Positions 2,251 to 19,577 of a stretch of 32,282 nucleotides of DNA are shown here, one piece after another; position 1 is the first letter of the stretch, and the number at the start of each line of letters is the position of its first letter. The stretch is from IMG/VR virus record IMGVR_UViG_3300033146_002631, positions 1-32,282 of that record. The stretch is one strand, 5' to 3'. The notes beneath the pieces were generated by a model. The model was not told where the DNA came from and did not search any database. It was given only the letters and a program-made list of their open reading frames with translations. This DNA is from a virus. The position numbers and the translations under genes were made by a program.

Positions 2251-3225
2251 TCATACTACTTTATTGGATCCAAGTAATAAGATAAATCTTATTAATATTC
2301 TTAGATCAAAACTTCCTTTCATCTCTCCAATCATTAATTCAAGAGTATCTTTTGCAGATACACTTTCTTTATATGTTCGAACAGATGTCATAGCAGAAAA
2401 TACATCTGCTATTCTTATTATTCGTGATATAAAAGGAATTTCATCTCCTTTTAAATTATAAGGATAACCAGTACCATTATAATTCTCATGATGATGTATA
2501 ATTCCTTTTACTACATTTACTGGTAAATCAACATCTACTAATACAGCAAGAGAATGAATTGCATGAGTTTTAATAACCTCAAATTCATCTAAATTCAATT
2601 TCCCTTTTTTGTTAATGATATAATGTGGTATTTTCACTTTTCCAATATCATGAAGAAGTGAAGCTATTCCACATTCATATCTATATTGATCTAATTCACT
2701 TTTTGACATTTTAGGAAGAAGATCAATACATTCATCAAATAAAAGAATTGATAACCAAAATACCATTAAACTATGACTAAATGTATTATAATCATGTCCA
2801 ATAAAATCGGATATCATTTTTACAGAATTCTCATTAGTTAAGAAATAAATATTCTGTTTTACTACATCAGTAATCTTTTTTAAAACCATTTTTGTCATTG
2901 GTTTATCAACTAATGATTCAAATGTTTCTTGTAAAAGATGTACTGATACATCGGCAAATATTTCAATTCTTATTTCTAATTCAATAGAAGTATCAGAAAG
3001 AATATTTACGATATTTTGAAGAAGATAATTTTGATAATTATTTTTATCATCTTTTGAAATATAAACTTCAGAAATAGATTTCTTTTCTAATTCTGAAATT
3101 TTATTTTTTGTAAAATGTCCTTTACTTGCATAAAGAACATATTTACTGGAACGCTTTAAATATAAATCAAATGTTCCAGTTATTTCAGTTAAAATACTTT
3201 TTAATGGAATTTGAATGTATTCCAT
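2251..3225 (-). CDS. HD-GYP domain protein, probable cyclic-di-GMP phosphodiesterase
   Basis: A 324-residue protein. Residues 1-70 form the small N-terminal domain often seen before HD-GYP domains (LYLK..SKYVLYASKG, then ISEVYIS). The HD-GYP domain covers about 140-320. It has His151 (FSHS), the HDIGK motif (His192-Asp193), His221, the HHHENYNGTGYP block (His244-246, Gly253-Tyr254-Pro255), Asp274 in RIAD, and the family ending FDLRILIRFILLLG. All expected metal ligands and the GYP signature are present, so it looks active. Family members hydrolyse cyclic di-GMP (some act on related cyclic dinucleotides). AAAGGAGG precedes the ATG, inside the end of the 51-residue gene upstream, which ends two bases before. 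The substrate and the effect on the host are inferred. Confidence 0.92.
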   Translation of the reverse strand: MEYIQIPLKSILTEITGTFDLYLKRSSKYVLYASKGHFTKNKISELEKKSISEVYISKDDKNNYQNYLLQNIVNILSDTSIELEIRIEIFADVSVHLLQETFESLVDKPMTKMVLKKITDVVKQNIYFLTNENSVKMISDFIGHDYNTFSHSLMVFWLSILLFDECIDLLPKMSKSELDQYRYECGIASLLHDIGKVKIPHYIINKKGKLNLDEFEVIKTHAIHSLAVLVDVDLPVNVVKGIIHHHENYNGTGYPYNLKGDEIPFISRIIRIADVFSAMTSVRTYKESVSAKDTLELMIGEMKGSFDLRILIRFILLLGSNKVV

Positions 3226-3227
3226 TG

Positions 3228-3383
3228 TTATTCCTCCTTTTCATAATCTTCATTTTTACATGGAAGAGTCATAAGAAAAATTCTTTTCATATCTCTTCTA
3301 GTTTGTTCAATAATATCATTAATTGCTTCATCTCGAAATATTTTTTTCATTCTTCTTTCTTCACACATCATTGTATTTAGCAT
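3228..3383 (-). CDS. 51-residue protein upstream of and coupled to the HD-GYP gene
   Basis: A short frame beginning MLNTMMCEERRMKK and ending KNEDYEKEE, with a strong AAAGGAGA ribosome site before its ATG. Its last codons (AAG GAG GAA TAA) form the ribosome site of the HD-GYP gene, which starts two bases after its stop, so the two are very likely translated in a coupled way. It is charged and helical in the middle (about residues 8-38) with two Cys (7 and 42). No homology recognised. It could be a small regulator of its neighbour, but nothing in the sequence shows that directly. Confidence 0.7.
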   Translation of the reverse strand: MLNTMMCEERRMKKIFRDEAINDIIEQTRRDMKRIFLMTLPCKNEDYEKEE

Positions 3384-3434
3384 TTTATTATTCTCCTTTA
3401 TTAAATTTAAGTTAATTTTTTAATACATCAACTT

Positions 3435-3448
3435 TAAATATATATAAC
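3435..3448. promoter_or_regulatory. TATATATA element in a divergent gap
   Basis: TAAATATATATAAC lies between the HD-GYP unit (minus, start 3383) and the gene at 3518 (plus). It is the same element as at 1194, 5647 and 11389. Confidence 0.5.
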
Positions 3449-3481: not shown

Positions 3482-3494
3482 GAACAAATAATAA
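3482..3494 (+). promoter_or_regulatory. GAACAAATWWTAA motif before the 3518 gene
   Basis: GAACAAATAATAA is an exact match to the recurrent motif, 36 bases before the ATG and upstream of the ATAGGAG ribosome site. Confidence 0.5.
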
Positions 3495-3517: not shown

Positions 3518-4216
3518 ATGAATCAATTTGAAGAAATTAAAGATATGTTAAATGAATCTACAAATGATATAAAAGCAATGTCAAAAATCAAAGATTTCTT
3601 AATGAAAGCAAGACAAAATTTAAGAAATAATAAAATAGACGAACTTAAAAAAATAAGTCCAGAATTAAAATCTATTGCAAAAAAATTTAATGCAAAAAAA
3701 TTAGTTCAACAATCAGGAATAGATAAATCGAAATTATTAAAAATGCAAGATGAATATGAAAAAAATATAACACCAAATAAATATTTTAGTTTCATATTAG
3801 CTTATACAACAATAATGAAATCAAAATTAACAAATACATCAATCGATTCTATAAAAAGAAAAAATATAACACAATATAATAAAAATAGAAGAAGTGGAAA
3901 AGGGCCTGTAATAGCAGCTACAATATTAGTAATAACTACTTTATGGACATCATTATATTTTTCAAGTAAAACTATAAATTCTCAATTAAATCTACCAGAC
4001 AAATTAACTGAAAAATTACCAAAAAATTTAAAAAATGGTAATATTCAAATACCTATATTTATTATGTTAGTAGCAGCATTTATAATAGGAATATATGTTA
4101 AAAGTGAAAATGCAACACCACCATCAGATAATGCACAAATAAAAACATCTTCAAATCAACCTAAACCAAATAAATCAAAAAATAATAATGATAATAATAA
4201 TGACTTTGTATTATGA
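3518..4216 (+). CDS. two-helix membrane protein of unknown function
   Basis: A 232-residue protein. Residues 1-125 are lysine-rich and mostly helical. Two hydrophobic segments follow: about 130-149 (VIAATILVITTLW) and 177-194 (IPIFIMLVAAFIIGIYV), with a 27-residue loop between. The last 38 residues are polar, rich in Asn, Lys, Pro and Asp. Its stop overlaps the start of the next gene (ATGA at 4213-4216), so the two are translated together. Two membrane spans would allow a holin or another envelope role, but holins rarely carry such a long N-terminal domain and I cannot choose. Codons end mostly in A, unlike the T-ending codons of the large tail genes. Confidence 0.75.
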   Translation: MNQFEEIKDMLNESTNDIKAMSKIKDFLMKARQNLRNNKIDELKKISPELKSIAKKFNAKKLVQQSGIDKSKLLKMQDEYEKNITPNKYFSFILAYTTIMKSKLTNTSIDSIKRKNITQYNKNRRSGKGPVIAATILVITTLWTSLYFSSKTINSQLNLPDKLTEKLPKNLKNGNIQIPIFIMLVAAFIIGIYVKSENATPPSDNAQIKTSSNQPKPNKSKNNNDNNNDFVL

Positions 4217-5646: not shown

Positions 5647-5660
5647 TTAATATATATAAT
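5647..5660. promoter_or_regulatory. TATATATA element in a divergent gap
   Basis: TTAATATATATAAT lies between the zinc-ribbon gene (minus, start 5592) and the PKD protein gene (plus, start 5694), only 34 bases before the latter. Here no exact GAACAAAT motif follows; AAACAAAG at 5672 is the nearest likeness. Confidence 0.45.
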
Positions 5661-8682: not shown

Positions 8683-9978
8683 TTACAATAATAAACTTCC
8701 AATTTCTTTAAAATTATTATTTGTATTTGAAACTAATTTTCTAGTAAATGTAATTTTATTATTTAATTTCACTTCATTCTTTACTAATATACCAAGAGCT
8801 AATGCTACAAGATGTTTATTATTCTTGTATATTAAATTAAGAATTTTTTCAAAATTTTTATTACAAAGTGATTTATTTGGTTTATGTTTTTGATTATATC
8901 TCATTCTACTAATGATTTCAGAAACACAAACTGATATAATTGCAAAAACTTCAGTATGATTTAACTTATCATAATCATAAGTAATTTTTTCTTCTAAAAT
9001 ATCAGAACCATTATAATTAGACATAAATACTTTGTATTTAATAAATTCTATTGCTGAATCATTATCAACATGTCCTTTTACAATATTAAATAAATTATCA
9101 GTAGTAATATTATCTTCTCCTATAGTATTAATAAAAGAATTTAATTGTTCTGATGCATATGTCCAACTACGAGGAGATGACCATGAAACATTTTCAGTAG
9201 GAGGTGTCATAAAACAATTTTCATTATGTTTTAAAAACATAATTATATCTAATCTGATATTATTTTTTACAGCATAATGTTCAATCCAGTCATCAACTTC
9301 AGCACAAACTTCAAGAAAATAAATTCTATTAGTTATTGGCGCTAACATTTGTTGAAATCCTGCTAAATCACATGATCTATTACCAGCCATTAATAAAATA
9401 ATATTTTGAGGTAAAAAGTGTGAATTAATTCCTCTATATGTTAATAACTGAAATAAATAACTTTGCATTGTTTTATTTACTAAATGAATATCATCAAGAA
9501 ATAAAATAACAGGATCTGTATTAATGTTAAAATTCTTTTTAGGAAATTTTACATTCTTCAATGATATAATATCTGGTCTAGACCAAATAGTATGTGAAGG
9601 ATCTTTTTTAGGATTATATAAAGGAACTGTATCTACTATAGTTTGAATTTCATCAGGAAGATTTTTATTTTTCTTTAATAATTTTAAACTATCAGAAAAC
9701 CATTCAAAAAAGCAAGTCATTGCTGCTGTACCAGTTTTTGGAAGACCTGATAAAGCTTCTAATTGACTTGTACTTAAATAATAAATATCTAAACCCCATT
9801 TATTATTTTCGCATAATGTTTCAATTAATTCAGATTTACCAATTCCAGGAGGTCCAGTTAAACACATACATGAAATATGTTTTTCTGGATTATTCATATG
9901 TGAATTCACATAACTTTCAATATAAGGTATTGAATCATTAATTACTATATTCTTTTCCCACTTACTAGTCATTTTCAT
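8683..9978 (-). CDS. MoxR-type AAA+ ATPase
   Basis: A 431-residue protein. The AAA+ module has Walker A GPPGIGKS (42-49), Walker B VILFLDD (157-163), a sensor-1 Asn in LLMAGN (200) and a likely arginine finger region APITNRI (Arg218). After the module come about 200 helical residues. The pattern is that of MoxR-like ATPases, which work as hexameric chaperones with a VWA-domain partner to mature or remodel a target complex. The next gene upstream on the same strand encodes exactly such a partner, 20 bases away. In a phage tail cluster the target may be a virion or host protein, but this is inference. AAAGGATTTGTAA precedes the first ATG; a second ATG two codons later is also possible. Confidence 0.88.
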   Translation of the reverse strand: MKMTSKWEKNIVINDSIPYIESYVNSHMNNPEKHISCMCLTGPPGIGKSELIETLCENNKWGLDIYYLSTSQLEALSGLPKTGTAAMTCFFEWFSDSLKLLKKNKNLPDEIQTIVDTVPLYNPKKDPSHTIWSRPDIISLKNVKFPKKNFNINTDPVILFLDDIHLVNKTMQSYLFQLLTYRGINSHFLPQNIILLMAGNRSCDLAGFQQMLAPITNRIYFLEVCAEVDDWIEHYAVKNNIRLDIIMFLKHNENCFMTPPTENVSWSSPRSWTYASEQLNSFINTIGEDNITTDNLFNIVKGHVDNDSAIEFIKYKVFMSNYNGSDILEEKITYDYDKLNHTEVFAIISVCVSEIISRMRYNQKHKPNKSLCNKNFEKILNLIYKNNKHLVALALGILVKNEVKLNNKITFTRKLVSNTNNNFKEIGSLLL

Positions 9979-9998
9979 TTACAAATCCTTTCTTTTTT

Positions 9999-11348
9999 TT
10001 AATTAATTCTTATAATTCTACCTCTTATATCATTAAATTTATTTGTTGAACTTGTTATGTACATAATTGGAATATTTATTGGTAATAATTTTTGACAAGT
10101 TTGAATGTCAGATTCCATATCAGTTATACATATTACACATGAAATTAATTTATTATAATCTTTTTTAATAAATTTAACAACTCTATTAAATACATCATGA
10201 TGAGAAGTTCCTCCATTTGATCTTCTAATATTAATTTCATCAAAATCAACTGTTTCTATATCATCATAAAATTTCTCCCATGTAATAGTTGAATCATGTT
10301 TTAAAACAAAAAGATTTTTAAAGTAAGATCTTGATTGATATACTATTTCAAAAGCTTTTTTAACATCCTTATTAGATACTGAAGCAGATTCATCTATTGC
10401 AAAAAATACTGTTCCTAATTCTTCTTCTTCTGCATATGTTGGTCTATATCCTATACTTGGATAATTAGCTAAATATGAATATGATGGACGACTCCAACAT
10501 AAATCAGTACTCTTTTGTAATGCAGTTGCTAAACAATCTTTTGTAATTTTTTCCCAATCAACTTTAACCTTATATATTTTATTTAATATTTGTTGATATT
10601 TAATTGTTCCTTCCCCTTTTTGAGAAACTATTAATTGTTTAGTTAACTCAGTAGAATCAAAATGTTCTTGTTCAATTTGTTTAACTGTTTCTGCATCCAT
10701 TTCTTCTGGTACTTTAACTTTATACTGAATGTATTCTTTCCCATTAATGTTAGTAATTTGTTCTTCTATTTCTATTTCATTTTCTTTTCCATTTTCTTTT
10801 TCATATGTGAATTTAATATTTTGCTTTTTTATTTTTACGTTATTTGTTAATTTTGAATATATTTCTTCTTCACACATATTGTCAAATTTATTGTTAAAAT
10901 AGAAATTTTTCTTATATAACGTATTTTGATGAACATCTAAATACAAATTCATTCGATTTTTTTCTTGTGCAAATAAAAGACTTAAAACTTCAATAACATG
11001 ATTTATTACATAATCTCCTGCAATATTCCATATCATATCATTTCTATTATTTATTCTAAAACGATGTTGAAATATTTCATGCATTATTTCATGTAGTAAT
11101 ACAAATGTTAAATATTTTTGTTTGTCTTGAAATTTATGAAGAGTAGCACCTTCACTACAATTGATAATTATTACTTTAGAATATATATCAATTAACGCAT
11201 CTGCTTTTTTAATAGGAAAATTATCCATCGGTACTATTTCATAAGCTAATAAATGTAATCCGTATGGAGATGTTAATTTTGTTAGTATTAAATTAGTTAT
11301 TGATTTTTGTATCATCATATTAATATTTTTTAAAAAATTAGTTTCCAT
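9999..11348 (-). CDS. metallopeptidase-like/VWA-domain protein (DUF2201-like), MoxR partner
   Basis: A 449-residue protein if it starts at the ATG at 11348, which has AAAGGAAA before it. An ATG five codons earlier (11363) would put that ribosome site inside the gene. The N-terminal half has a zinc-peptidase HEIMH motif (86-90) in LLHEIMHEIFQH, followed by NIAGDYVINHVI. The middle is charged and less ordered. The C-terminal part is a VWA-like fold with the metal-site motif DESAS (Asp319, Ser321, Ser323) and a later TDMESD. This is the layout of DUF2201 proteins that pair with MoxR-type ATPases. The first gene of this two-gene unit drives leftward from the gap at 11349-11543. Confidence 0.85.
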   Translation of the reverse strand: METNFLKNINMMIQKSITNLILTKLTSPYGLHLLAYEIVPMDNFPIKKADALIDIYSKVIIINCSEGATLHKFQDKQKYLTFVLLHEIMHEIFQHRFRINNRNDMIWNIAGDYVINHVIEVLSLLFAQEKNRMNLYLDVHQNTLYKKNFYFNNKFDNMCEEEIYSKLTNNVKIKKQNIKFTYEKENGKENEIEIEEQITNINGKEYIQYKVKVPEEMDAETVKQIEQEHFDSTELTKQLIVSQKGEGTIKYQQILNKIYKVKVDWEKITKDCLATALQKSTDLCWSRPSYSYLANYPSIGYRPTYAEEEELGTVFFAIDESASVSNKDVKKAFEIVYQSRSYFKNLFVLKHDSTITWEKFYDDIETVDFDEINIRRSNGGTSHHDVFNRVVKFIKKDYNKLISCVICITDMESDIQTCQKLLPINIPIMYITSSTNKFNDIRGRIIRIN

Positions 11349-11388
11349 AAATTTCCTTTCCATAAAAAATTAATTACCTATCTAATAA

Positions 11389-11402
11389 TAAATATATATA
11401 AC
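11389..11402. promoter_or_regulatory. TATATATA element in a divergent gap
   Basis: TAAATATATATAAC lies between the VWA gene (minus, start 11348) and the tail block (plus, start 11544). It is identical to the copy at 3435. Confidence 0.5.
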
Positions 11403-11543: not shown

Positions 11544-11699
11544 ATGAATATAAATAAAATAGCATCAAATTTAAGGAATGATTATATAGAAGAAAATTGT
11601 TCTGCAAGTATAAATGCATATGAATCATTACCAACAAAAAAAAGATATTCACAATATGAAGAATTAACAGAATTAATAGATGAAGATATTGAAGAATGA
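11544..11699 (+). CDS. 51-residue acidic protein at the head of the tail block
   Basis: A short frame starting MNINKIASNLRNDYIEEN and ending ELTELIDEDIEE. AAGGATCT lies at good spacing before the ATG, the same ribosome site as that of the 1116 gene. Its stop overlaps the next start (ATGA at 11696-11699), the same coupling as seen elsewhere in this genome. The protein is helical and acidic at the C-terminus. No family recognised. As first gene of the tail operon it may be a small virion or assembly protein. Confidence 0.7.
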   Translation: MNINKIASNLRNDYIEENCSASINAYESLPTKKRYSQYEELTELIDEDIEE

Positions 11700-19387: not shown

Positions 19388-19577
19388 CGAGAAGTCATTA
19401 GATCAATATAGTAAAGTACTTGAAGAAAATATTTTTTTAATGATTGAATTGTTAAAACAAGATTATCAATCTATTATGAATATGCCTATAGATAGGTTTT
19501 ATAAGTTTTTACAATTAAAAGATAAATTCGATAAAGAAGTTCAACAAGCACAAAAAGAGGAATTAGATAAAATATAA
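19359..19577 (+). CDS. C-terminal extension frame, reached by +1 frameshift or internal start
   Basis: An open frame in +1 relative to the gp26-like gene runs from a TAG at 19356-19358 to a TAA at 19575-19577. It encodes, from 19374, DHCINEKSLDQYSKVLEEN and then a helical segment ending KEVQQAQKEELDKI. The first ATG is only at 19440, with no good ribosome site, and would give 45 residues, yet protein-like sequence starts well before it. The overlap contains TTT CGA (19370-19375), where a slip from UUU to UUC before a rare CGA codon would join the frames and give about 373 residues. Alternatively it is a short separate gene. The helical MPIDRFYKFLQLKDKF segment fits a chaperone tail. Confidence 0.5.
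   Translation, partial: FPSSFDHCINEKSLDQYSKVLEENIFLMIELLKQDYQSIMNMPIDRFYKFLQLKDKFDKEVQQAQKEELDKI

Follow-up and report, generated by a model that had tools for sequence, protein, structure and literature searches.

An accessory HD-GYP cassette in a jumbo-phage lineage, possibly directed at a host cyclic dinucleotide

The commonest substrate of the HD-GYP family is c-di-GMP, and some HD-GYPs degrade 3′3′-cGAMP (PMC8177086). Specificity for cGAMP, as in enzymes of the V-cGAP and PmxA type, has no reliable sequence signature (PMC8177086), and family membership alone does not decide between these two substrates. In PmGH, alanine mutants of the metal ligands had essentially lost activity, with E185 and D305 as the exceptions; D183, K225 and D308 proved as important as the ligands, and mutations of the GYP motif had little effect (PMC4159591). 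In 2021 Iyer et al. predicted that HD-GYP enzymes across jumbo phages, QDB70412.1 being one example, serve as counter-nucleotide defences against cyclic di- or oligonucleotides (PMC7824862). Phage proteins with anti-CBASS activity have been described as well (cited in PMC12072042).

The stretch of DNA analysed here, referred to as the window, is the 32,282-base virus record IMGVR_UViG_3300033146_002631 (positions 1 to 32,282). This record is a fragment of a jumbo phage, and its clade is one of jumbo myophages because the relatives of its sheath include contigs of 152, 207, 236, 275 and 312 kb. The sheath, tube and baseplate genes of the window were located at ~15–24 kb. An affinity to AR9 and PBS1, hinted at by the sheath, was weakened by the terminase of the relative G004 (locus label L011), which was nearest to those of huge uncultured phages and Flavobacterium phages, with cyanophages next. 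Elsewhere in the window, an operon at 8683–11363 (−) encodes an AAA ATPase and a DUF2201 metallopeptidase/VWA protein, a MoxR/VWA-like pair that is kept in the clade members L005, L109, L110, L112 and L121; the DUF2201 protein is almost without relatives among named phages. Two small ORFs, at 11544–11699 (+) and 19440–19577 (+), showed strongly phage-like codon usage and are probably real genes that were missed at the 60-aa cut-off. In relatives, we observed an apparent stand-alone response-regulator receiver domain protein (L011:500–961, +), a further signalling gene in the clade, and, in the sister phage L186, ∼12 tandem, similar-looking leftward genes of 91–124 aa (L186:7848–11248, −; '...KLITI..G..KGIL...'), apparently an expanded family. 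The locus under study comprises the following features.

1262–1798, + strand: left flanking conserved phage gene, with 53–58% identical homologues in the sister contigs L186 and L187
2215–2246, − strand: intrinsic terminator with stem AAAAGGUGG/CCACCUUUU, a 9-nt loop and a U tract (folding)
2251–3225, − strand: HD-GYP protein of 324 aa (Pfam HD_5, PDB sequence matches, alignment, Bd1817 fold match); residues 1–104, Bd1817-like N-terminal domain; residues about 140–320, HD-GYP domain
3228–3383, − strand: small protein of 51 aa, first gene of the unit (codon usage)
3233–3240, − strand: HD-GYP gene ribosome site AAAGGAGG, lying within the final codons of the small ORF (sequence)
3393–3399, − strand: small-ORF ribosome site AAAGGAG (sequence)
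3436–3447, − strand: promoter-like element TTATATATATTT, 64 bp upstream of the small ORF (motif enrichment)
3518–4216, + strand: right flanking conserved phage gene, with GAACAAAT upstream at 3482 and homologues in L186, L187 and G004
1195–1206, 3436–3447, 5648–5659 and 11390–11401: TTATATATATTW sites, in all four divergent intergenic regions
1237, 3482, 11475, 17484 and 19602, + strand: GAACAAAT, 25–69 bp upstream of rightward genes

In the sister contigs, whose sheath is 78–79% identical to that of the window, the two flanking genes are separated by 418 and 356 bp that contain no HD-GYP gene, whereas in the window the distance is ∼1720 bp and includes the unit. A family profile search gave no HD-GYP match over the cut-off in 44 sheath-relatives, nor in seven earlier relatives, G441, AR9, PBS1, phiR1-37, LPJP1 and BpSp; since many of these records are fragments, the absence can be relied on only in the long records and at the locus itself. 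This search for homologues at the same locus, which had been proposed together with the original prediction, thus returned a sister locus without the unit and no tested relative with an HD-GYP gene. Because the two sisters keep the flanks adjacent and no tested relative has the gene, the HD-GYP unit is an accessory cassette without a counterpart in the sister phages, and it was therefore either gained by the lineage of the window or lost in the others. In GC3 (0.095, versus 0.073–0.097 in the other phage genes tested) and codon use the HD-GYP gene matches the phage, so that it is codon-ameliorated and a recent arrival is improbable. The flanks are conserved phage genes, but the earlier description of the unit as lying between virion genes holds only loosely, since the recognised virion genes start ∼8 kb to the right of its immediate neighbours. 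The first flanking gene is followed by ∼400 gene-free bases (1799–2215), a gap of similar size being present in the sisters; an Rfam scan of the window, this gap included, gave no match. Compared between L186 and L187, the sisters' gap ends in a conserved stretch, TATATATACTAATTTTATTCC.

The codon usage of the 51-aa ORF was phage-like at 0.356 bits/codon, the same as that of accepted genes, versus −0.706 for the ORF opposite, and its product had no match in NCBIfam or PADLOC. The last codons of this ORF build AAAGGAGG, the HD-GYP gene's ribosome site, and translational coupling of the two genes is likely. After the HD-GYP stop codon, the terminator hairpin at 2217–2246 (−) folded with a dG of −17.4 kcal/mol (z −4.12, 0/200 shuffles); a simple terminator scanner had missed it because its loop is 9 nt long. 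With strong ribosome sites at both ORFs and a U tract behind this hairpin, the claim that the unit has its own ribosome site and terminator was borne out. As for transcription initiation, TTATATATATTW was found five times in the window against 0.56 expected, a count reached by 0/100 shuffles, and is a candidate for a second promoter class. The direction of this element is uncertain because its core, TATATATA, is self-complementary, and we held back from assigning it strictly to leftward genes in view of this core, the divergent setting of all four sites and a similar element in the sisters that precedes a rightward gene. The second motif, GAACAAAT, occurred 14 times against 3.1 expected and was also present ahead of rightward or virion genes in the relatives L005, L011, L013 and L015; it is likely to be a late-promoter element of the jumbo clade. 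The T4 late promoter, TATAAATA, was not enriched in the window (10 versus 17.6 expected). No GAACAAAT was found upstream of the HD-GYP unit on its own strand, and the unit therefore probably falls into an expression class other than that of the virion genes, an assignment to be read with the TATATATA core in mind, which reads the same both ways.

The 324-aa protein matched HD_5 (PF13487) far beyond chance, with 98.1 bits (E 6.1e-28; cut-off 27.2); it had no PHROG match and no sensor domain by Pfam. Alignment showed the metal motif H...HD...H...HH...D to be complete, with all seven ligands (H151, H192, D193, H221, H245, H246 and D274) in place. The loop HHENYNGTGYP at 245–255 fits HHExx(D/N)GxGYP, GYP being G253-Y254-P255, and the conserved Ile is I263. 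In addition, D145/K196 correspond to the PmGH pair D183/K225 and R283/K286 to its base-binding R314/K317. The original prediction of a full-length, intact HD-GYP protein was in agreement with these data, including the positions of H192-D193, H221, the GYP signature and D274. It had further listed His244–246, of which H245 and H246 are the metal histidines and H244 is an extra histidine, and had spoken of all ligands: the seven metal ligands are indeed intact, including H151, which it did not list, but the wording is slightly too strong in view of three substitutions relative to PmGH (E185 to Asn147, R192 to Met154 and D308 to Ser277). R192 is the partner of D308 in PmGH, so that both members of this pair are replaced. 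At the D308 position, a second-shell site that is near-invariant yet no formal defining residue of the family, we compared 49 homologues taken from bacterial genomes and unannotated faecal fragments, of which 45 had Asp and none Ser; Ser together with intact ligands was found in three other virus-borne copies (L076, L085 and L093, among 37).

The E/D-T-G cluster that defines the trinuclear subfamily (PMC4159591) is absent from the phage protein, which has N147-T148-F149 at the position of PmGH E185. In the catalytic-domain tree the protein was placed with bacterial Y/F-type HD-GYPs (SH-aLRT 81) on a long branch. That subfamily has Y/F at the E185 position, in clusters of the Y-T-Y or F-T-F type, and the phage cluster reads N-T-F and not Y-T-F. 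This grouping supports an ultimately bacterial origin, as suggested earlier by the remark that the gene may have been taken from a host. One copy of this HD-GYP lineage is known. Peptide patterns retrieved no close relatives from IMG/VR, tblastn against named phages gave no credible relative, and GTDB contigs yielded matches of 39–40% only, in Magnetococcales. Candidate precedents in INPHARED were rejected; 29 were unannotated 'Bacteriophage sp.' faecal scaffolds (6/6 inspected were marked UNVERIFIED), and in Microcystis phage MaAM05 (L014, MW495066.1) the 'cGAMP phosphodiesterase' is flanked by rplK, rplA, nusG and ilvD, a bacterial stretch. Other virus-borne HD-GYPs were scattered in the tree, where strongly supported branches require no fewer than 3 changes and parsimony gives 10, and HD-GYP genes have therefore entered viruses more than once, independently. 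H192, D193, H221 and D274 were conserved in 37/37 virus-borne copies, these residues having been left out of the search patterns that collected them; viruses therefore keep the HD-GYP catalytic site. The ∼200-aa stand-alone HD-GYPs L077 and L085, the latter with the Ser noted above, come from two AT-rich virus contigs and form a supported pair (SH-aLRT 96).

In a PDB sequence search, residues 1–104 matched the N-terminal domain of Bd1817 (E 8e-8), giving the phage protein a Bd1817-type architecture of this domain plus an HD-GYP domain. The AlphaFold2 model, built from an alignment of only the window proteins and the proteins of the collected HD-GYP loci, was of good quality over the HD-GYP part, with pLDDT values mostly of 80–97, and weak at the N-terminus. 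With this model, Foldseek returned Bd1817 as the best match over 324 columns, the full length, followed by the HD-GYP domains of DvhD, PmGH and PA4781 (E 5e-12 to 7e-8). A BFVD fold search gave no match at E ≤ 0.001, and no match to the N-terminal domain was found in plasmids and the collected HD-GYP loci.

From the ligands, the fold, the anatomy of the transcription unit, the phage context and the empty sites in the sisters, we infer catalysis, substrate, timing and benefit as follows. A cassette made up of a promoter-like element, the 51-aa protein, the HD-GYP protein and a terminator, carried by one lineage of the jumbo myophage clade, would deliver an enzyme that hydrolyses a host cyclic dinucleotide, most likely c-di-GMP; we give this reading a probability of roughly one half. 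The HD-GYP protein would bind Fe or Mn, with two metal ions or perhaps three in its site. It is likely binuclear if it belongs to the Y/F-type subfamily with which it groups, and would then stop at the linear dinucleotide, converting c-di-GMP to pGpG (PMC4159591, PMC8177086). Host c-di-GMP would then fall during infection, and the cell might leave its sessile, matrix-making state or change its physiology or surface in another way. The Bd1817-like domain, and perhaps the 51-aa partner too, could control dimerisation, activity or placement. That the protein is an active cyclic dinucleotide phosphodiesterase is quite probable. Met154 at the R192 position and Ser277 at that of D308, whose Ala mutant was inactive like the ligand mutants, count against activity; c-di-GMP as the main target is an evenly balanced expectation.

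Conceivably, the enzyme could instead degrade the 3′3′-cGAMP of CBASS, or another cyclic dinucleotide, and so block effector activation in infection. This tentative alternative is favoured by the best PDB sequence match, V. cholerae V-cGAP3, a 3′3′-cGAMP phosphodiesterase (E 1.3e-24), by the cGAMP activity of some HD-GYPs (PMC8177086), by the role already proposed for jumbo-phage enzymes (PMC7824862) and by the rare, patchy distribution of the cassette, which suits an arms-race gene. However, the cGAMP-degrading HD-GYPs of V. cholerae hydrolyse c-di-GMP too, and a reliable mark of cGAMP specificity is lacking (PMC8177086); in Foldseek the similarity to V-cGAP3 was below that to other HD-GYPs, and next to the unit no known anti-defence gene was recognised, the PADLOC defence-protein library giving weak cross-matches only. 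It is doubtful, by extension, that the cassette as a whole serves as an island of counter-defence, its HD-GYP enzyme removing a CBASS cyclic dinucleotide while the Bd1817-like domain and the 51-aa partner tune the activity. Such an island would provide the first experimentally tractable anti-CBASS enzyme of the HD-GYP type known from a jumbo phage; it would also account for the repeated, independent capture of HD-GYPs by large phages. Nothing favours Pycsar, which the original prediction had also raised and whose signals are cyclic mononucleotides (PMC12072042).

Both readings presuppose hydrolysis, and the architecture shared at full length with Bd1817, which is inactive on c-di-GMP (PMC8177086), could point to a non-catalytic receptor or sponge for cyclic dinucleotides or to a protein–protein adaptor; DvhD is such a c-di-GMP receptor (PMC13090378), and Ser277 would fit a loss of activity. 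We consider this unlikely, since all metal ligands and the GYP motif are intact, unlike those of the degenerate Bd1817 and DvhD, and the same Ser occurs with intact ligands in three other virus-borne proteins. A recent carry-over from a host or an assembly chimera, in either case without function for the phage, is very improbable. The absence of the gene from relatives, and the example of MaAM05 as bacterial sequence filed as phage, would be in line with it, but the unit sits on a single contig between syntenic phage genes, has the GC, GC3 and codon use of the phage, and carries its own regulatory signals, including a motif that recurs where genes diverge elsewhere in this phage. Hydrolysis of a host cyclic dinucleotide, most likely c-di-GMP, is the reading we prefer; an active enzyme would mean that the phage resets a host second messenger directly by means of a captured bacterial enzyme.

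The window protein shares its ligands, the HHExxNGxGYP loop and the residue pairs D145/K196 and R283/K286 with the bacterial Y/F, probably binuclear, HD-GYPs, of which V-cGAP3 (5z7c) is the best solved sequence match. In contrast to these, it has N in place of E185/Y, S in place of D308 and M in place of R192, reaches a top identity of 36% over 182 columns, is encoded by a phage and lacks a sensor domain known to Pfam. With Bd1817 of Bdellovibrio bacteriovorus (3tm8) it has the two-part architecture in common, but there the GYP motif is broken, Asn replaces the last Asp and activity on c-di-GMP is absent (PMC8177086); DvhD, catalytically silent on c-di-GMP (PMC13090378), also lacks residues retained in the phage protein. 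The other HD-GYPs from IMG/VR (L074, 211 kb; L087, 182 kb; L096, 98 kb; L077/L085 and others) have the conserved active site and reside in large AT-rich contigs, several of which, at 98–211 kb, contain a terminase; many are ∼200-aa stand-alone proteins and some, such as L074, REC-like fusions, and they lie on different branches of the tree and therefore represent separate acquisitions. Acb1, Apyc1 and Acb2, which act against CBASS or Pycsar, would have the end effect in common if the counter-defence reading is right; their folds are unrelated to HD-GYP. The enzymes of Iyer et al. share the setting of an HD-GYP in a jumbo phage, but named phages held no credible relative of the window protein. 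With the counter-defence idea for jumbo-phage HD-GYPs published in 2021 (PMC7824862), the locus does not represent a novel type of system. The present analysis contributes a bounded cassette, sisters without the unit, an architecture like that of Bd1817 in which the active site is intact, and evidence of repeated capture with that site conserved. The clean bounds, the empty site in the sisters and the known catalytic residues to mutate make it well suited to testing the 2021 prediction, and the repeated, separate acquisition of HD-GYPs by large phages, together with the retention of their active site, suggests that the removal of cyclic dinucleotides is often useful to them.
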